From contig NZ_CP062698.1 in the NCBI RefSeq assembly GCF_018389385.1, forward strand, positions 1,677,501-1,741,500: 64,000 nucleotides of DNA, in the 5' to 3' direction. The stretch is from Anthocerotibacter panamensis C109 (GTDB taxonomy: Bacteria; Cyanobacteriota; Cyanobacteriia; Gloeobacterales; Anthocerotibacteraceae). The position numbers and the translations under genes are program-made. Every line of letters starts with the position of its first letter. Within the stretch, counting starts at the first letter, position 1. Positions 1,571-46,487 of the stretch are shown piece by piece. Under the pieces are notes generated by a model. That model was not told the origin of the DNA. It did no database searches and was given only the letters and a program-made list of their open reading frames with translations.

Positions 1571-1597
1571 AAATGTTACATGCTTGAACTCCAATCG

Positions 1598-1628
1598 GCC
1601 CTCTTCCTCGGAAGGGGGCTATTTTTTT
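1598..1628 (+). terminator. Rho-independent terminator after ndhD
   Basis: GCCCTCTTCC at 1598-1607 pairs with GGAAGGGGGC at 1610-1619 (one G-T wobble), and is followed by a T-run at 1622-1628. It lies 27 bp after the ndhD stop codon and separates it from the oppositely oriented methyltransferase gene. Confidence 0.8.
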
Positions 1629-1638
1629 AGATTGCTCG

Positions 1639-2538
1639 TTAATTTGAGGCGGGAGTATTTGAGTGGACTTCGATCACTCTTTGCCCGAGCCACTCTGCAA
1701 CAGTCGGGACGACTGCATTACCAAGGAGCCGCCCTCTACGACCGTCCATCCGGGAGGAAACCCCATAAGCCTTTCCCACTCTGTCCACGTCAAGTTTCTC
1801 GCCACAGAGTATTGGCCTGTCTGAATGACCGCCTTGATGTCCTCCAGTTTGGGCACGTAACGTGGGGCAGATGCTCTTTGCCATGGTGTACCCGAAGCCA
1901 CCGCGACGTTGTACCACAAGCGGAGCGTTTGAGATAGTGCTCTTACGAACCTGGGATCTAATTTTCGTCCGGCTCGGTTCTCTCTCCTGACGATCCCTAT
2001 ACAGTTCGCGGCTGTCAGTAAAGATGTGATAGGCACGTTCTGATCTAAAACTTGCGATAAAGAACACTCGATCACGATGGTGGGGCAAACCCGCATCGGC
2101 AGCGTTAAACGATAGCCATCCCCCCAAATACCCGTTCTCTTCGAGCTTGTCGATAACTGTCTCAAGAGCGGTTCCGTGCTCTGCTGAGAGGAGACCTGGG
2201 ACATTTTCCAGGACCAGCCACGTCGGTTGAACTTCTGCAACGAGTTCCATAAACGTGTAGAACAGACCGCTTCGTTGGCCTGCAAGGCCTTTTCGGTCAG
2301 TATTTGCGTGGCTGAGGTCTTGACAGGGCCATCCAGCACACCAAAGGTCGGCAGGAGGGATAGCTGAAGCTCCAAGGGTGGTGATGTCGTCATGAAGAGG
2401 TACCAAGGGCCAATGGCGCTTAAGGATTTTCTGGCAAAAGGTGTCGATCTCGCATTGAAAAACAACTTCCATCCCAGCTCTTTCAAAGCCAAGATCGAGG
2501 CCACCTATACCGGCAAAGAATGAAGCGACTCGGAGCAT
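1639..2538 (-). CDS. DNA (cytosine-5-)-methyltransferase of an R-M cassette
   Basis: This is a C5-cytosine DNA methyltransferase that would protect host DNA from the nuclease encoded by the divergent pair downstream. It shows motif I (SFFAGIGGLDLGFERAG) at the N-terminus, the catalytic PC motif (GWPCQDLS) near residue 70, ENV (motif VI), an HHRDRVFF motif VIII variant, and motif X (GNAVVPTVAEWLG) at the C-terminus. The stretch expected just before motif X, LTWTEWERLMGFPPGWT, lies in another frame (about 1747-1805). This suggests two compensating frameshifts, so the 299-residue frame may encode a protein with a scrambled segment next to its recognition domain. The gene diverges from the HTH regulator across about 150 bp. 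Its base composition is more AT-rich than that of its neighbours, as expected for acquired DNA. Confidence 0.85.
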   Translation of the reverse strand: MLRVASFFAGIGGLDLGFERAGMEVVFQCEIDTFCQKILKRHWPLVPLHDDITTLGASAIPPADLWCAGWPCQDLSHANTDRKGLAGQRSGLFYTFMELVAEVQPTWLVLENVPGLLSAEHGTALETVIDKLEENGYLGGWLSFNAADAGLPHHRDRVFFIASFRSERAYHIFTDSRELYRDRQEREPSRTKIRSQVRKSTISNAPLVVQRRGGFGYTMAKSICPTLRAQTGGHQGGHSDRPILCGEKLDVDRVGKAYGVSSRMDGRRGRLLGNAVVPTVAEWLGQRVIEVHSNTPASN

Positions 2539-2691
2539 TGCGCTAAATATAGCAGGATCGGCAGGTTGCAGGAAGTTCCATCGGAAACAAACACTACCTT
2601 ATTTTACCCTAATCATTACTTTGTGGACGATTATCGTCCACGAATTTTATTCGAGCATTGGTAGCATCAGCCTGAAGTTACAGATTAGTTA

Positions 2692-2940
2692 ATGCGCATG
2701 GATTTAGATAAGGCAAATATTAGCGGACCAAAGATCAGGAAAGAGCGGCTGAGGAGGCAATGGGATCAGGTGGAGTTGGCTGCTGCTCTTACCGATTACG
2801 GTATCACTTTGGAGCGCTCCGATATTTCGGAAATTGAACTCCAGAAGAGGGGTGTCAAGGACTACGAGCTTGATGCCTTTGCAAAGGTATTTGACATTGA
2901 TCCTATTTTTTTGCTGAGAGGAGAGGAAACCAATGACTAG
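2692..2940 (+). CDS. Xre/Cro-type HTH regulator, possible R-M controller
   Basis: An 82-residue protein made almost entirely of one helix-turn-helix domain: IRKERLRRQWDQVELAAALT followed by the recognition region ERSDISEIELQKRGVKDYEL. It precedes the HNH nuclease gene and overlaps it by 8 nt (nuclease ATG at 2933, stop of this gene at 2938-2940). This is the layout of controller (C) proteins that delay nuclease expression in type II R-M systems, although it is not an obvious member of the classical C.PvuII family. An alternative start is ATG 2698, two codons later. The role is inferred from position; the DNA-binding fold is visible. Confidence 0.75.
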   Translation: MRMDLDKANISGPKIRKERLRRQWDQVELAAALTDYGITLERSDISEIELQKRGVKDYELDAFAKVFDIDPIFLLRGEETND

Positions 2941-3706
2941 AGAGAAGAAAAGCCGTGGGCGGCAAAAATTCCTACCTCTCGTCCCTGTGAGCCAAGGTTC
3001 TGTTCCGGGAGATGTCAATCGGGAACAGTGGCTTGCAGCGACCTGTGCAGGGTTCGTTTCCACCAGCGGTGCTAATAAAGAGTACTACCGGGTAGTGCTT
3101 GAGGTGCTGTGGCCCACCGGTCATGGAATTCCTGGCCCCTACGTTACTACCGAGCAGTTGCGTGATGCCGTTAATGTATATAGGTTGAGCAGACACCAGG
3201 GCGGTCAGCCATACAAACCTTACATTGATGTCTTCCGTCGGGTAAGGGAGTTACAAGGGGAGGAAGGTGTAGTGGGCATTGGCCGAGAGGGCAACACCTA
3301 CCAGTTGGTTGATTTGACCCTCGGCAAGAAGCGGAAACCTCGAACTAAGCTCATGGACGATCTGTGGGAGCAAATTTTGGCTAAGGCCTACGGACAGTGT
3401 GCCGTGTGTGGAAGGGGAGAGCCAGAGGTCCGACTGGAGCAGGACCATAAGATCCCACGCGTGAGGAGTGGAGGTGATGAGGAAGAAAACTGGCAGCCTT
3501 TGTGCGGAGAGTGCAACAACTTCAAATCCACCTCCTGCCGGGGCTGTAAGCTTGATTGCACCCAGTGCTCATGGGCTTTCCCAGAAGAATTTGCTCCGCT
3601 TAGGTTGTCGGCGGCGAATATTCAACGTATCAGGGCACATGCTTTAGAAATAGGTGTTGATCCCCACGATCTGCTAAATCAGGTTGTAGCTGCCTCCCAA
3701 TTGTGA
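2933..3706 (+). CDS. HNH-family endonuclease, probable type II restriction enzyme
   Basis: A 257-residue protein ending in an HNH/zinc-binding nuclease module. The module has CAVCGRG, then EQDHKIPRVRSGG with the catalytic histidine, NWQPLCGECNNFKSTSC, and a further pair of cysteines (CRGCKLDCTQC), enough to hold structural zinc. The N-terminal ~140 residues have no recognisable motif and would carry DNA recognition. The gene is translationally coupled to the HTH gene and lies beside a C5 methyltransferase, which supports a restriction role in the cytoplasm. The stop codon (TGA 3704-3706) overlaps an ATG that opens the ndhD-like remnant. Cleavage specificity cannot be read from the sequence. 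Confidence 0.8.
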   Translation: MTREKKSRGRQKFLPLVPVSQGSVPGDVNREQWLAATCAGFVSTSGANKEYYRVVLEVLWPTGHGIPGPYVTTEQLRDAVNVYRLSRHQGGQPYKPYIDVFRRVRELQGEEGVVGIGREGNTYQLVDLTLGKKRKPRTKLMDDLWEQILAKAYGQCAVCGRGEPEVRLEQDHKIPRVRSGGDEEENWQPLCGECNNFKSTSCRGCKLDCTQCSWAFPEEFAPLRLSAANIQRIRAHALEIGVDPHDLLNQVVAASQL

Positions 3707-3888
3707 TGGGTATTACCTTGGCATACTCCCTAGCCTACTTCCCAGCTACCGTCCTCGCCTTCTGCATGGTCGGCCTCGGTCTTCTCCCAAACTTGATGAC
3801 CAACGTCAGTGCTGCTTCGGTCACTGCTTTGGTCACGGTGCAAGCCCAAGTCGCACAGGTAGCTCAGACACCGCATATGGCCCCTTAG
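3706..3888 (+). pseudogene. ndhD 3' remnant downstream of the R-M cassette
   Basis: The frame opens at ATG 3706, overlapping the HNH stop. After ten unrelated codons it reproduces the last transmembrane segment of NdhD (AYFPATVLAFCMVGLGLLPN), then ends with a different tail (about 17 codons) from that of the intact gene. It could still be translated as a ~60-residue membrane peptide, but it lacks everything else of NdhD. Either the R-M cassette inserted with a long target duplication, or this is the tail of a second, tandem ndhD paralogue whose body was replaced by the cassette. Confidence 0.85.
3733..3834 (+). repeat. ndhD 3'-end direct repeat, copy 2
   Basis: Near-identical to 1406-1507 (three mismatches). 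Together the two copies bracket the methyltransferase, regulator and HNH genes. Confidence 0.9.
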
Positions 3889-5878: not shown

Positions 5879-6736
5879 TTAAGGGATTGGAAAAGCCGAC
5901 TGAATAACATAGCCACCGTGACCGTCTGCTTTAATAATTATTCTAACATTGCTAAGAGAATAAGGTATTACTTCTACTATATTGCTGGAAGTACGGTGAT
6001 AACCTTTACCAAGGTTACCAAGTCCAGGAGCGCAGTCAAATGCTTGAGTTTTTCCAGCCTTGGGGCTTGTCGATAGCCATACCACAATTTCATCCTTTTT
6101 AGCCTCAATCGCTTCACCAATTGCTGGCTCCATTTTTATGCGGTCAATAAATTTTGTTGCTACTTGTTTTCCATCTATTACTCTTTGTTCCACTTCAGCT
6201 AATGGCTTGTCTGGCCCGTGTTCTTTTAAAGGGTGTGATGGAGCATCGAGTTTTCCTTTGGAATTGAAAATCTGTCTTCCTTCTGTCGCTTTTAATCCTC
6301 CTGGCTGAGAGAGCTTTGTGTACTGTCCATGGGGACGGTCCAAAACCTTCTCGACCGCCTCCAAACCCTCCCCCATAGCTTCGGACGCCTTGTGTTTAAG
6401 AGTAGGATCGAGCTTGTGGATCTGTTGCGTCAGCGCCTCAATGCGTTGCAGTAGATGCTCTACTTGCTTGGCATTACGGGCAGCTTTGATGGATTTACCC
6501 ACCGCATCGCCCAAATAAGGCACCATCGAGACAAGTGACAATCCTGCATCCAAGTAATCCCCTTTTGCCAAGCTAATCGCCGCACTGATCCCATCCGAGA
6601 TAGGCGTAGGTTCAGAATCTTTACTAGCTATGATGGATGAATTCTGCTGTATGCAATACTCGAATCTTTGTTCTAGAGTATGTATTGTTTGAGATCCTGA
6701 GTTATCAAATTTAGAAGTATTTGAAAAACATGCCAA
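5879..6736 (-). CDS. Orphan polymorphic toxin module, RNase A-like C-terminus
   Basis: The reading frame has 285 codons, but the first ~42 residues look unrelated to toxins and overlap the previous immunity gene by 64 nt. From residue ~43 it copies the pre-toxin segment of the upstream full-length toxin (PTPISDGISAAISLAKGDY), encoded by a 149-bp repeat. The C-terminal ~130 residues resemble the bacterial CdiA-CT RNase A-like family: HPLKEHGPDK with the candidate catalytic histidine, VATKFIDR, a GKGYHRTSSN segment and a terminal GGYVIQSAFPIP strand. It is probably a silent C-terminal cassette that becomes active by recombining through the repeat into the complete gene. Its own start codon and secretion signal appear to be missing. 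Confidence 0.65.
   Translation of the reverse strand: MACFSNTSKFDNSGSQTIHTLEQRFEYCIQQNSSIIASKDSEPTPISDGISAAISLAKGDYLDAGLSLVSMVPYLGDAVGKSIKAARNAKQVEHLLQRIEALTQQIHKLDPTLKHKASEAMGEGLEAVEKVLDRPHGQYTKLSQPGGLKATEGRQIFNSKGKLDAPSHPLKEHGPDKPLAEVEQRVIDGKQVATKFIDRIKMEPAIGEAIEAKKDEIVVWLSTSPKAGKTQAFDCAPGLGNLGKGYHRTSSNIVEVIPYSLSNVRIIIKADGHGGYVIQSAFPIP
6462..6610 (-). repeat. Toxin recombination repeat, copy in the orphan module
   Basis: 149 bp matching 7794-7942 with about four mismatches. It encodes the pre-toxin linker (SLAKGDY, VPYLGDAVGKSIKAARNAKQ) that joins the trafficking part to interchangeable C-terminal toxins. Confidence 0.9.
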
Positions 6737-7027: not shown

Positions 7028-8341
7028 TCAGGGTTTGGGGAAATAAGTTACAAGTCTCCACTCACCTATACTCCGTACATACTCCCATACTATCTGAGCC
7101 TTTGGTAATATGGCAGGATCATTTATGGGAACCCTATGCTTAGGGTTATCAGGGTTTTTGATCAGCTTATCTGTGATTGCCTCCCTTTGAGGCACCATAG
7201 ATTCACCAAACCCCCTTACACGGTTGGTTGTAACGGTTAGCTCGTGGCGAACTGGCTCACCTGTAGCAGGATCAATATAAGTCGGTTTACCTGTAATAGG
7301 GTCAGGAAACGTTGGCACTTTACCATTTTTAAGATCTACTTCTAGCGCCTTACGCCCTCGTCCAATTGCTTCGGCTTCAACTTCGGGAGATGTAAAGCGT
7401 GATGCTCTCTCAGGAAGCTTTTTGCTGGTTTTGCCATCTGGTTTCAAACCTGATTTAACACGTTCAGCCTGCTGAGCCTCGGTAGTCTGGTAGCCATGAT
7501 CTGCGTGCCCGTGCCCATGCGTTGCTTTTTGGGGATTAATAGGCTCAAGCATTTGGTCTGCCTGTGACACGGTTTGCTCTGCTCTGTTCCTACTATTTTC
7601 TTTGTACCACTCTTCCCGCGTTGTAGCTCGCTCTCCAGGCTTAGGCGTGTACCCTCGCTTGACCTGCCTACCTTCAGTCCCCAATGCCTCCCCGACTTTA
7701 GCCGCCACTTCAGGGAGTGCCGTTCTTCGTGCGCTACCCGACAAGTGTTGAAGGCGTGTGGATACCTCACGAATACGCTCAACTAGCTTTCCAACTTGCT
7801 TGGCATTACGGGCAGCTTTGATGGATTTACCCACCGCATCGCCTAAGTAAGGCACCATCGAGACAAGTGACAATCCTGCACCTAAGTAATCCCCTTTTGC
7901 CAAGCTAATCGCCGCACTGATCCCATCCGAGATAGGCGTAGGATCAGCAATCCCTGCCAGATCTGCTGCTGCCTGTGCCATCTCCAGCGCCATTTCCCGG
8001 TTGAGATGGGATAGCTCTTTCTGGGCTAGCTCCAACGCCTCATCCGCCTTGGCTGCACCCTTGAGTGGGTTCAGTTGAACCAATTCCTGTCGTTGGGCTT
8101 CCGTACTGACAGATGGAATCTGGATAGGAGATAGTCTACGCTCACCGGATGCGGGCTCACCGGGCACTTGCTTCAAAGGGTGATTGGTGAGGAAATCATC
8201 GGGTAGCGGGGTGTACGTTAGCACGGGTGGTCCATCTTCCACGGGCTGCGCTTGAACCACCGGCGGTTTAGTAGAAGGCTTGGGCGGCTGCGGGATGTGG
8301 TCGGAGGAGGGCTTGGGAATACGCGACGCATAGATGGACAT
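7028..8341 (-). CDS. Polymorphic toxin with pre-toxin domain, unknown C-terminal toxin
   Basis: 437 residues in three parts. Residues 1-50 are proline-rich (IPQPPKPSTKPPVVQAQPV) with no signal peptide. Residues ~90-180 contain the pre-toxin segment PTPISDGISAAISLAKGDY and VPYLGDAVGKSIKAARNAKQ shared with the orphan module. The C-terminal ~150 residues (from RASRFTSPEVEAEAIGRG to VRSIGEWRLVTYFPKP) would be the toxic domain, perhaps a nuclease, but I cannot assign a family. The lack of a signal peptide suggests delivery by a contractile or other dedicated secretion system rather than Sec, which is inference. The gene is followed by its presumed immunity gene and then by the orphan cassette. Confidence 0.65.
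   Translation of the reverse strand: MSIYASRIPKPSSDHIPQPPKPSTKPPVVQAQPVEDGPPVLTYTPLPDDFLTNHPLKQVPGEPASGERRLSPIQIPSVSTEAQRQELVQLNPLKGAAKADEALELAQKELSHLNREMALEMAQAAADLAGIADPTPISDGISAAISLAKGDYLGAGLSLVSMVPYLGDAVGKSIKAARNAKQVGKLVERIREVSTRLQHLSGSARRTALPEVAAKVGEALGTEGRQVKRGYTPKPGERATTREEWYKENSRNRAEQTVSQADQMLEPINPQKATHGHGHADHGYQTTEAQQAERVKSGLKPDGKTSKKLPERASRFTSPEVEAEAIGRGRKALEVDLKNGKVPTFPDPITGKPTYIDPATGEPVRHELTVTTNRVRGFGESMVPQREAITDKLIKNPDNPKHRVPINDPAILPKAQIVWEYVRSIGEWRLVTYFPKP
7794..7942 (-). repeat. Toxin recombination repeat, copy in the full-length toxin
   Basis: Partner of 6462-6610, in the same orientation, 1,332 bp apart. Homologous exchange between the copies would delete the first C-terminal toxin and its immunity gene and fuse the orphan RNase A-like toxin to the full N-terminus. 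Confidence 0.9.
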
Positions 8342-26869: not shown

Positions 26870-27708
26870 AAGTTGAGGGGGGAGTCGTCAAGGCAGTGGC
26901 GATCCGCACACACTTTCCCTGACATCTGGTCAGTTTTTGATCAACCTGCTGCCGCGAACCCTGTGATCTCCCGCCAACTTGTCAGGCGCTCCTGCAGGGT
27001 CTGACGGTAGATTGCCGCACTCAGTCGATGGCGGTGCGGACAAAAATGCTGGCGGATCGGGCCGTAGGCCGACAGAAATCTCTGGGCATGACCGACCGAT
27101 TTGAAGCGCCGCATCCGTCGTTCCCGCTCCCGAGTCGGCTGGTGGGAATTTTCGGCCTGATTGTTCAAGCCCTTGTGCTGCCGGTGTTCCACGGATTTCA
27201 AGATCTCTTTCTTGGCTGCCCCATAGCTGGCCAGTTTGTCGGTCACGATCACTCGCGGCACGTACCGCAATCCCTTCAGCAGTTTACGGAAGAACTTCTT
27301 GGCCGCCGCCTGGTTGCGACGCTTCTGCACCAGGATGTCCAGGACGTTCCCTTCCTGGTCCACCGCCCTCCACAAATAGGAGGTCTGGCCATTGATTTTG
27401 AGGACCACTTCGTCGAGATGCCACTTGTCGCCGGGTTGTGGACGGCGGTGGCGGATCTGGTTGGCGTAGACCTGGCCAAACTTGCGGCACCAGGCGCGGA
27501 CAGTTTCGTAGGTGAGGGTGATGCCGCGCACGGCCATCATCTCTTCGACATCCCGGTAACTGAGGCAGAAGCGGAAGTAGAGCCAGACGCAGTGGACGAT
27601 GATCTCGGGCGGAAAGCGGTGGCCACGATAGAGGGAAGCAGATTTGCTCATCGTTCCAGCCTGCCCGAGGATTGCCCTGGACGGCCACTCCCTCAACTTG
27701 ACAATGCC
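26870..27708 (-). mobile_element. IS6-family element, copy 1 (transposase intact)
   Basis: Defined by comparison with copy 2. Its right end carries the terminal repeat (27690-27708, reverse complement GGCATTGTCAAGTTGAGGG). At the left end only the inner part survives: the outermost ~10 bp of the repeat are missing, so sequence identity starts at 26870. The transposase is complete. It forms direct repeats with copy 2 around a 591-bp cargo. Confidence 0.85.
26941..27651 (-). CDS. IS6-family (IS26-like) transposase
   Basis: 236 residues from ATG 27651 (MSKSASLYRGHRFPPEIIVH). DDE motif: WHLDEVVLKINGQTSYLWRA (first aspartate), VIVTDKLASYGAA (second) and NNQAENSHQPTRERER (glutamate). It catalyses replicative or conservative transposition with cointegrate formation. 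The longer open frame upstream reads through the element's terminal repeat into the SRPBCC remnant and is not the gene. The codon use is GC-rich and unlike the host, suggesting recent acquisition. Confidence 0.95.
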   Translation of the reverse strand: MSKSASLYRGHRFPPEIIVHCVWLYFRFCLSYRDVEEMMAVRGITLTYETVRAWCRKFGQVYANQIRHRRPQPGDKWHLDEVVLKINGQTSYLWRAVDQEGNVLDILVQKRRNQAAAKKFFRKLLKGLRYVPRVIVTDKLASYGAAKKEILKSVEHRQHKGLNNQAENSHQPTRERERRMRRFKSVGHAQRFLSAYGPIRQHFCPHRHRLSAAIYRQTLQERLTSWREITGFAAAG

Positions 27709-28223
27709 GGCGGCGGGCCCATGGCCGCTCCTACGGCGAGACGGTGCAAAGCCGCATGAATTCCTGACTCGAACGACGGCTTGAAGGTTAGGCGGTAAAC
27801 CCAGGCCAGCGGCCCCGCGACGATCAGAGCATGGTCGATCCGCGTGCCACTGTGCGTCGGTGTGAGCACATGCGTCGCCGTCAGGGTCGCGAGGGGCAAC
27901 CGGGTCACCTCGGTGTAATGCTGGTTCGTCGCCACGTCTGTGAACACCCACGGAAAAGCCGGCCCGCTCGCACCTTGGTTGCTTCCTGTCGTTCCCGTCT
28001 CGAATGGCCCGTTGATCTTCCGACTGGTGACCAGGTGGTCCCAATTCGGCGTACGCTCTGAGTCCTCATACCAGCGCCAGATCTGCTGCGGCGTCGCCCG
28101 CGATACTTCGCTCGCGTCAACCTGCCACGAGGGAACGAGAGATGCGGCGACGGTCAGAAACACGGCGGCTGATATAGCGATGGCGCCAGCTACCCATATC
28201 GCGCTGTTCACACAGACCTTCAT
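27693..28223 (-). pseudogene. SRPBCC/polyketide-cyclase-like membrane protein, truncated cargo gene
   Basis: From ATG 28223 (MKVCVNSAIWVAGAIAISAA): one N-terminal membrane segment, then a START/SRPBCC-type domain (TPQQIWRWYEDSERTPNWDH, TRIDHALIVAGPLAWVYRL). The last codons (ALSS and stop) are read from the IS6 terminal repeat, so the native C-terminus has been cut off. Only this gene lies between the two IS6 copies. A palindrome directly before the start suggests control by a TetR-type repressor. Confidence 0.75.
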
Positions 28224-28224
28224 A

Positions 28225-28265
28225 TTGACGGTGTCAATATTGCCACTGAATATGGACGGTGTCAA
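28225..28265. promoter_or_regulatory. Twin operator-like palindromes before the SRPBCC gene
   Basis: TTGACGGTGTCAA (28225-28237) is a 5-3-5 palindrome immediately upstream of the start codon. A second, near-copy GGACGGTGTCAA lies at 28254-28265. Such TTGAC-N3-GTCAA sites are typical of TetR-family operators. No repressor gene is in the cargo. Confidence 0.55.
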
Positions 28266-28299
28266 TAAAAAATCTTATTAGCTTGGGATGGCTCGCAAG

Positions 28300-28954
28300 G
28301 GCATTGTCAAGTTGAGGGGGGAGTCGTCAAGGCAGTGGCGATCCGCACACACTTTCCCTGACATCTGGTCAGTTTTTGATCAACCTGCTGCCGCGAACTC
28401 TGTGATCTCCCGCCAACTTGCCAGGCGCTCCTGCAGGGTCTGACGGTAGATTGCCGCACTCAGTCGATGGCGGTGCGGACAAAAATGCTGGCGGATCGGG
28501 CCGTAGGCCGACAGAAATCTCTGGGCATGACCGACCGATTTGAAGCGCCGCATCCGTCGTTCCCGCTCCCGAGTCGGCTGGTGGGAATTTTCGGCCTGAT
28601 TGTTCAAGCCCTTGTGCTGCCGGTGTTCCACGGATTTCAAGATCTCTTTCTTGGCTGCCCCATAGCTGGCCAGTTTGTCGGTCACGATCACTCGCGGCAC
28701 GTACCGCAATCCCTTCAGCAGTTTACGGAAGAACTTCTTGGCCGCCGCCTGGTTGCGACGCTTCTGCACCAGGATGTCCAGGACGTTCCCTTCCTGGTCC
28801 ACCGCCCTCCACAAATAGGAGGTCTGGCCATTGATTTTGAGGACCACTTCGTCGAGATGCCACTTGTCGCCGGGTTGTGGACGGCGGTGGCGGATCTGGT
28901 TGGCGTAGACCCGAGGATTGCCCTGGACGGCCACTCCCTCAACTTGACAATGCC
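28300..28954 (-). mobile_element. IS6-family element, copy 2 (internal deletion)
   Basis: Both terminal repeats are complete (28300-28318 and 28936-28954, GGCATTGTCAAGTTGAGGG). Relative to copy 1, about 193 bp are missing between the positions equivalent to 27473 and 27665, with a CC/CG microhomology at the joint. Otherwise the copies differ by only a few bases. Confidence 0.9.
28380..28934 (-). pseudogene. IS6 transposase with N-terminal deletion
   Basis: Same as copy 1 from VYANQIRHRRPQPGDKWHL to the end, but the first ~60 residues, including the N-terminal zinc-finger/HTH part, are deleted. The DDE residues remain; DNA binding should be lost. Confidence 0.9.
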
Positions 28955-42683: not shown

Positions 42684-44477
42684 ATGACCCTGCCCAGCCA
42701 ATACGACCCCTTTACCACAGAGCCCCGGTGGCAACAATACTGGGCGGAACAGGAGTTCTATAAAGCCCAACCCCAGTCCGGGAAAGAACCCTACACGATT
42801 CTTATTCCGCCGCCCAACGTCACCGGCAACCTGCACATCGGACACGCCCTGACAATGTCCACCCAGGATGTCCTGATCCGCTATCATCGGATGCTGGGCT
42901 ATGACTGTCTGTGGTTACCGGGGACCGACCACGCTGGGATTTCTACCCAGGTCGTAGTTGAGCGCGAATTGGGACGCGAAGCTCTGGGGCTGCAAAAAGA
43001 ATTCGGTGCCCTATCTAAAGAACAACAGAAACAGGTGAGCCAGCAAGGGAGCCATCTACGTAAAGCCATGGGCCGCGAAGCCTTCCTGCAACGAATCTGG
43101 CAGTGGAAGGAGCGCTCCGGCGGGCAGATTATTCACCAACTCAAGCGCCTTGGCTGCTCCTGCGATTGGAGCCGCGAACGCTTCACCATGGACTCTGGCC
43201 TCATTCGAGCAGTGACGACCGCCTTCGTGCGCATGTATCGAGCGGGCCTGATTTATCGTGGGGAGTATTTGGTCAATTGGTGTCCTGGTTCTCAGTCTGC
43301 TATCTCTGATCTGGAAGTGGACACCAAAGAAGTCAAGGGTTTTCTGTGGTACTTTCGCTACCCTGTCATGGGTGAAGCGGGCCGCTATTTAGTCGTGGCG
43401 ACCACACGCCCGGAGACCATGCTGGGCGATACCGCTGTGGCGGTGAACCCAGGGGACGAACGCTACCGCGACCTCGTGGGCAAAACGCTCCTCTTGCCGA
43501 TCCAGGACCGCCCGATTCCCATCATCGCTGACGAACTGGTAGACCCGACATTTGGTACCGGCTGCGTGAAGGTCACCCCCGCTCACGACCCCAATGACTT
43601 CGCCATCGGCAAACGGCACAACCTTCCTTTTATCAACATCCTCAACCCTGACGGGACGCTCAACGAAAATGGCGGACCCTTTGCAGGTCAGGACCGTTTC
43701 GAGGCCCGTCAAAACGTAGTCCAGTGGTTCGAGGAGCACGAGCTATTGCAGAACATGGAGCCCTACACCCACCATGTTCCCTACTCCGAGCGGGCTGGGG
43801 TGCCGGTGGAGCCCTACCTCACGACTCAGTGGTACGTAAAGATGGAGCCTCTGGCTGAACGGGCACTGGAATTCCTGACGCGCCAGCAGCCCCATTTCGT
43901 GCCTGAGCGTTGGGAAAAAGTCTACCGCGACTGGCTGGAGAATATCCGGGATTGGTGCATCTCCCGTCAGTTGTGGTGGGGCCATCAGATCCCCGCTTGG
44001 TACGTAGTGGGCGAAGAAAATACCGAGCCCATCGTCGCGGTGGATGAAGCTGAAGCCTACGCGTTAGCTCAGGAGCGCTATGGAGACGAGGTCCAACTAC
44101 AGCGCGACGAAGACATGCTCGACACGTGGTTCTCGGCGGGGTTGTGGCCCTTCTCGACGATGGGTTGGCCGGAGGCGACGGCAGACTTGGCTCGTTACTA
44201 CCCCTCTTCGGTCCTGGTCACTGGCTTCGATATCATCTTCTTTTGGATCGCCCGCATGACGATGATGGCGGGTCAGTTGACGGGTGAAGTGCCCTTTAAG
44301 GATGTGTACATCACGGGTCTGGTCCGCGACGAGAAGGGCCAGAAGATGTCTAAGACCAAGGGCAACGGCATCGACCCCTTAGAACTGATGGACAAGTACG
44401 GCACGGATGCGGTGCGCTTCACCTTCCAAATGGAGCTGATTGCGGAACGGCTGGACAGGGCATCTGCCCATCTGTGA
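42684..44477 (+). pseudogene. valS: Valyl-tRNA synthetase, 5' part of a disrupted gene
   Basis: From ATG 42684 ([20 protein letters not shown]) the frame is a normal ValRS: HIGH motif ([15 protein letters not shown]), [10 protein letters not shown], the editing domain ([20 protein letters not shown]), and KMSKS ([19 protein letters not shown]). After TDAVRFTFQ at 44428 it enters ~16 foreign codons and stops at 44477, so the anticodon-binding domain and C-terminal coiled coil are missing. Deleting one 1,044-bp unit would join 44428 to 45473 in frame and restore a 919-residue enzyme, the usual length. As an essential gene it must exist intact in living cells, here in a variant form or elsewhere. 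Confidence 0.9.
43784..44428 (+). repeat. valS internal direct repeat, copy 1
   Basis: 645 bp that recur without any difference I could find at 44828-45472 (offset 1,044 bp). It covers the end of the editing domain through the KMSKS region. Confidence 0.95.
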
Positions 44478-44827
44478 CTACAGACCAATGTAAAACGCCA
44501 GCTGACCCGCCGCAGCGTCGTAAAGACGATGCGCGACCAAGTCTGTCGCCAACGGCCAAAGCGCTGGAATGCTGCGTGTCGGCTGTCATCGCACTGGGTG
44601 GACCTCCAGGCAAGCCCTGAGGGCTAAGCGTGGGCACAGCGTTCGTCACCAAGCCGTGGGCTCGAAGATTTTCTCCGGCTAGAATCGAAGCGCTCGAGCG
44701 CTGTTCGGGAGAGCAATCCCAGATGCCTCGGGCGAGCAGAAGCGAGCGGGCGGCATCGCATCCCACGTCAGTGAAGCGACCGCACGCAACCACTCGAGCA
44801 AGGCCTGGGCGATTCCCTACTCCCGCT
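44429..44827 (+). other. Degraded valS-like filler between the valS repeats
   Basis: 399 bp. The first ~200 bp can be aligned, with many mismatches and small indels, to the valS sequence directly after the second repeat: for example CTCCAGGCAAGCCCTGA occurs at about 44606 and at 45607, CTGGAATGC at about 44563 and 45577, and GGCTAGAAT at about 44679 and 45664. The last bases (TTCCCTACTCC at 44813-44823) repeat the sequence just before copy 1. So the filler looks like a corrupted version of valS, not a foreign insert. Reading frames here are not credible genes. Confidence 0.7.
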
Positions 44828-45472
44828 CTCCGAGCGGGCTGGGGTGCCGGTGGAGCCCTACCTCACGACTCAGTGGTACGTAAAGATGGAGCCTCTGGCT
44901 GAACGGGCACTGGAATTCCTGACGCGCCAGCAGCCCCATTTCGTGCCTGAGCGTTGGGAAAAAGTCTACCGCGACTGGCTGGAGAATATCCGGGATTGGT
45001 GCATCTCCCGTCAGTTGTGGTGGGGCCATCAGATCCCCGCTTGGTACGTAGTGGGCGAAGAAAATACCGAGCCCATCGTCGCGGTGGATGAAGCTGAAGC
45101 CTACGCGTTAGCTCAGGAGCGCTATGGAGACGAGGTCCAACTACAGCGCGACGAAGACATGCTCGACACGTGGTTCTCGGCGGGGTTGTGGCCCTTCTCG
45201 ACGATGGGTTGGCCGGAGGCGACGGCAGACTTGGCTCGTTACTACCCCTCTTCGGTCCTGGTCACTGGCTTCGATATCATCTTCTTTTGGATCGCCCGCA
45301 TGACGATGATGGCGGGTCAGTTGACGGGTGAAGTGCCCTTTAAGGATGTGTACATCACGGGTCTGGTCCGCGACGAGAAGGGCCAGAAGATGTCTAAGAC
45401 CAAGGGCAACGGCATCGACCCCTTAGAACTGATGGACAAGTACGGCACGGATGCGGTGCGCTTCACCTTCCA
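44828..45472 (+). repeat. valS internal direct repeat, copy 2
   Basis: Partner of 43784-44428; it continues directly into the authentic 3' part of valS. Confidence 0.95.
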
Positions 45473-46487
45473 GTCAGCTATTTCCGGGGCGGGACAGGAC
45501 ATCCGCATGGACTACAACCGCAAAACCCAGGAATCGCCCAGCGTCGAAGCGGCGCGCAACTTCGCCAACAAGCTCTGGAATGCAGCCCGCTTCGTACTGC
45601 TCAAGCTCCAGGCAAGCCCTGAACAGCGGGAGCAAGCGTTCCAACAAGCCCTGGCTGAAGACAGGCTAGAATTGGCCGACCGCTGGATTTTGGGACGGCT
45701 GAATAAAACCATTGCCCAAGTCCACGAACTGATGACGGCGTATGAGTTAGGCAACGCCGTCAAACTCATCTACAGTTTCATCTGGGACGACTATTGCGAT
45801 TGGTATATCGAACTGGTCAAATCCCGGTTCGGTACCCCCACGGGCGCAGTAGCAGAATATATCTTGCTTGAAGTGCTCACCGCGAGCGTCAAGTTGCTCC
45901 ACCCTTGGATGCCCCATATCACTGAAGAGATCTGGCAGGCAGTCGCCCAAGCTGAAAACACCTCGATTTCGATTCAGCCCTATCCCACAGTTCGCCCTGA
46001 GTGGGTAGATGATGCGGTAGAGACCAATTTCGCGCTGATCAAAGGCATTGTCCGCACCATTCGCAACCTCAAAGCCGAGGCGGGGCTGGCTCCGGGGCAG
46101 CCCGTCCCGATCCATCTGGTGACCGCTTCACAATCCGCACATCAACTTCTGGAGCACAATCAGTCCTATCTCAGCCTAGTTAAACTCTCCGCTATTGACC
46201 TCCATGAGACCTTCCCTCAGCTAGAGGAGAAAGTTTTTGCGGGCGTCGAGGGTCCGGTAGAAGTCCTCCTACCCCTAACAGAATTGGTGGATCTGGCTAA
46301 TCTACGGGTCAAACTGGAGCGCGACCTCACCAAAAAAAACAAACAAGCCGAAAGCCTGCGCCAACGCCTCAACAGCCCCGACTACCGCGACCGCGCCCCT
46401 GAGGATCTCGTCCAAAAATCCGAACAGGAACTGCACGAGCTAGACCAGCAAACTGTTACCCTCAAGCAGCGCCTAGCCGTTCTTTAA
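44844..46487 (+). pseudogene. valS: Valyl-tRNA synthetase, 3' part of a disrupted gene
   Basis: 547 codons from a chance GTG. They repeat the region from [20 protein letters not shown] through KMSKTKGNG and continue through the anticodon-binding domain (FANKLWNAARFVLLKL, IWDDYCDWYIELVKSRFG, LHPWMPHITEEIWQ) to the C-terminal coiled coil (LRVKLERDLTKKNKQAESLR). It has no HIGH motif and cannot work alone unless it complements the 5' fragment, which is unlikely. Confidence 0.9.

Follow-up and report, generated by a model that had tools for sequence, protein, structure and literature searches.

Background

Overlaps between the start and the end of a contig, together with contig ends of low quality, are documented in long-read assemblies, the overlaps being a well-known fault where circular chromosomes are assembled (PMC4699355; PMC6966772). 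When the start/end overlap of a circular contig is left untrimmed, the same sequence flanks the seam and is accompanied by a low-quality tip, and both are found at the locus described here. The seam in this case lies inside the record, however, so that the record would have to have been rotated, or two contigs joined, afterwards. Raw PacBio reads, for their part, contain approximately 8% insertions, 3% deletions and less than 2% substitutions; reads of both platforms are noisy at their 5' ends, where those of PacBio have an insertion peak (PMC7671305). A tandem partial gene duplication or amplification likewise leaves part of a gene repeated exactly and in direct orientation, but the sequence between the copies at this locus is a noisy, insertion-rich continuation of the gene rather than a clean one.

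The gene in question is valS of Anthocerotibacter panamensis, a thylakoid-less cyanobacterium. Its product, valyl-tRNA synthetase (ValRS), is essential, and a record in which the sole copy of the gene is broken is therefore itself a signal of error. Together, the two halves of the gene exceed the curated cut-off of the model for bacterial valyl-tRNA synthetases (TIGR00422), although valS is here interrupted in the record whilst, on the evidence set out below, it is probably intact in the cell.

Structure of the interrupted valS gene

The window, that is, the whole stretch of 64,000 bp that was analysed, corresponds to bases 1677501-1741500 of a single-contig genome of 4,187,797 bp, rated 99.99% complete. 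Within it, sequence comparison identifies an exact direct repeat in valS, whose two copies of 645 bp are 100% identical, lie 399 bp apart (spacer, 44429-44827) and are offset by 1,044 bp (Table 1), as a previous sequence-only reading of the window had reported. Identity over such a length is far beyond chance. That reading had also described the arrangement as a tandem duplication of a 1,044-bp unit. The offset and the 645 bp of identity are confirmed; the idea of a clean unit does not survive, as the remaining 399 bp are a corrupted copy of the valS continuation, which had been missed.

Neither half could be a complete enzyme, as had been recognised: the first frame runs into a TGA 15 codons past its exit from repeat copy 1 and the second is missing the N-terminal half. 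By Pfam, each half contains a class I synthetase domain; the second alone has the ValRS C-terminal arm and the anticodon-binding domain as well. The first half matches TIGR00422 with 844.8 bits, rising to 1422.7 bits when neighbours in frame are included (cut-off 612.1). Dropping one 1,044-bp unit leaves an open frame of 919 amino acids, upholding the earlier claim that an in-frame ValRS is restored, and this protein shares 55-74% identity with its counterparts in ten relatives, to which it aligns without gaps at both repeat edges. A strong valS match in a stop-free frame was present in 35 of the 38 related genomes searched, the matches to this query being weak only in G017, G018 and G038.

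Table 1. Features of the valS locus, in window coordinates
Feature	Coordinates	Strand	Basis
N-terminal part of valS as written, to the TGA at 44475-44477; comprises repeat copy 1 and 15 spurious spacer codons	42684..44477	+	Frame and domain search
Repeat copy 1, 645 bp; probably the last polished stretch of one contig end	43784..44428	+	Exact repeat; contig-end role inferred
Spacer: noisy, insertion-rich copy of valS 45476-45790, probably an unpolished contig tip; end uncertain within the last ~75 bases	44429..44812	+	Alignment
Probable start of the other contig end: TTCCCTACTCC and a few stray bases	44813..44827	+	Sequence; role inferred
Repeat copy 2, 645 bp	44828..45472	+	Exact repeat
C-terminal part of valS: end of the catalytic domain, anticodon-binding domain and C-terminal tRNA-binding arm	44844..46487	+	Frame and domain search

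The spacer as a corrupted copy of valS

A genome-wide search with the 399-bp spacer returned one weak match (69%, E 0.005), which lies inside valS just downstream of repeat copy 2, the place expected if the spacer is a damaged continuation of the repeat. In a local alignment, valS 45476-45790 is collinear with spacer bases 6-384 with a score of 228, compared with 91 +/- 9.4 and a maximum of 121 for shuffled controls (n=500). Alignments of the spacer to the upstream sequence, and to reverse complements, gave no score above the shuffle range. The whole-genome search found no other copy of the spacer, and comparison with Rfam gave no match; a mobile element, an intron or an RNA family in the spacer is rejected on these two results.

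The alignment anchored at the start of the spacer sets 271 valS bases against 328 in the spacer: 226 match and 30 are substituted, while 72 bases are inserted and 15 deleted. Indels number about 59, or about one per five bases; they are mostly of 1-2 bases and evenly spread, and insertions exceed deletions nearly five to one. Identity is similarly even along the length, at 60-72% of columns in each 50-column block, and the switch from perfect to noisy sequence at 44429 is abrupt. At the far end, the spacer carries TTCCCTACTCC (44813-44823), an 11-base sequence that also spans the upstream boundary of repeat copy 1 (43777-43787); a few stray bases then lead into repeat copy 2. A two-part fit of the spacer, to downstream and upstream sequence, scores 242, barely above the 232 of the downstream sequence alone, and the exact seam is thus uncertain within the last ~75 spacer bases. 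The order in the record is consequently clean valS, repeat, noisy valS continuation, seam, the last bases before the repeat, repeat and clean valS; between the repeat copies there is nothing but flanking sequence copied again with errors of the sequencing type, the evidence for the upstream tip being the 11-base match.

Comparison with a sister genus allows noise to be told from evolution. The nearest relative compared belongs to the same family (G001, locus L100; 72% identical protein over this part), and corresponds by identity and coverage to the hit in Candidatus Cyanaurora vandensis. Natural differences between the two valS genes fall at codon positions 1, 2 and 3 in the numbers 17/7/43, whereas the substitutions in the spacer are distributed 12/6/12, with no third-position excess. 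Furthermore, the sister genus has another base at 67 sites, and there the spacer has the base of its own genome 56 times and that of the relative five times. Because of these codon positions and this agreement, the spacer is valS of this very strain bearing random errors rich in insertions; the same two grounds rule out an ancient paralogue and a valS fragment of foreign origin. The error pattern is that of uncorrected long reads.

Origin of the interruption

Since the spacer consists of this strain's own valS overlaid with insertion-rich noise, an assembly error, one of the options raised by the sequence-only reading, is strongly supported, and the interruption is almost certainly an artefact of this kind. 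Added here is a more precise version of that option, in which two overlapping contig ends were left untrimmed. Two ends covering the same part of valS, with a true overlap of ~0.97 kb, would have been joined end to end. One of them would consist of 645 polished bp and then ~380 bp of raw-read tip, unpolished and rich in insertions, presumably from a long-read platform, and the other would begin a few bases ahead of those 645 bp. In keeping with such an overlap, the same sequence lies on both sides of the seam, in direct orientation and identical over 645 bp. The weak point of this explanation is that the noise in the spacer is above the average error of raw reads (about 13%, PMC7671305), so that the tip would have to come from a poor read end. 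The abruptness of the switch to noisy sequence at 44429 also counts against it.

The likeliest event would be a failed circularisation of a long-read chromosome contig, after which the record would have been rotated, placing the seam inside it. The present ends of the record are joined by an open DnaJ-like frame and have no 14-mer in common, and the faulty seam is therefore not at the record ends; this fits a record that was rotated once circularisation had gone wrong. Two separate contigs mis-joined during assembly may account for the data as well as failed circularisation does. In either case the living cell would possess one normal valS, so that nothing unusual about the organism follows from the break.

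Alternative explanations and implications

A real tandem duplication of the valS segment, carried by all or part of the population, with subsequent decay of the part downstream of the first copy, would give the observed order of repeat, downstream sequence and repeat. In a true duplication, divergence should be similar along the copies and follow a natural pattern of differences. Instead, 645 bp at 100% identity adjoin a spacer with ~59 indels in 271 bases, a sharp line that natural decay would not draw; the excess of insertions over deletions and the flat codon-position profile are equally at odds with it, and a duplication present in all cells would leave no other valS to sustain the cell. 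This explanation is accordingly highly improbable. A variant amplified in part of the population, as the earlier reading had allowed, would give two clean copies, whereas one copy here carries roughly one indel per five bases; an unstable partial duplication that is resolved by recombination and whose spacer was rapidly scrambled is more improbable still.

The 399-bp piece between identical flanks might also be viewed as an element or foreign DNA inserted into valS with a target duplication, and another cassette in the window (1571-3732) does have a 103-bp flanking repeat. The valS spacer, however, is a corrupted copy of valS and codes for nothing recognisable, which leaves an insertion with scarcely any credibility. 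It is just as hard to credit that valS is a true pseudogene and that a second intact valS, the remaining option of the sequence-only reading, serves the cell. No support for this was found: a profile search of the single-contig genome detected no second valS, the other matches to the ValRS model reaching at most 331 bits against a cut-off of 612, as would be expected of related class I synthetases. With a genome so nearly complete and in one contig, the option is contradicted unless an unassembled replicon carries valS.

With an untrimmed overlap as the preferred explanation, the seam matters only for the quality of a single reference genome. Taken at face value, the record would lead to valS being annotated as a broken gene or a pair of fragments, and work on the gene content of an early-branching lineage could be misled by this. 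Even when no reads are at hand, a seam of this type can be spotted by its signature, an exact repeat after which the expected continuation appears as a noisy, insertion-rich copy.

Other features of the window and record

The record (G000:C1) starts inside a DnaJ-like gene that spans the join between its end and start (L017 at the start, L018 at the end), which is unusual for a finished chromosome. Near the beginning of the window, genes for a C5-cytosine DNA methylase and an HNH endonuclease (ORFs 1639-2538, minus strand, and 2933-3706, plus strand) lie between direct repeats of 103 bp (1406-1508 and 3733-3835; 97% identical), which represent the 3'-terminal part of an ndhD-like gene (44-1570). 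In the downstream copy the frame stays open to a stop of its own. The arrangement resembles a restriction-modification cassette whose insertion produced a long target duplication, its restriction-modification role being suggested by the domains.

A 176-bp segment (6440-6615 and 7772-7947; 91% identical) is common to the neighbouring minus-strand ORFs 5879-6736 and 7028-8341, whose C-terminal ends differ, a pattern like that of modular secreted or polymorphic-toxin-like proteins. The region 26870-28954 contains two near-identical stretches 1.4 kb apart, each a copy of an IS240/IS6-type transposase gene (DDE_Tnp_IS240), with ORFs at 26941-28044 and 28380-28934, both on the minus strand and the second shorter; this is an ordinary insertion sequence pair.
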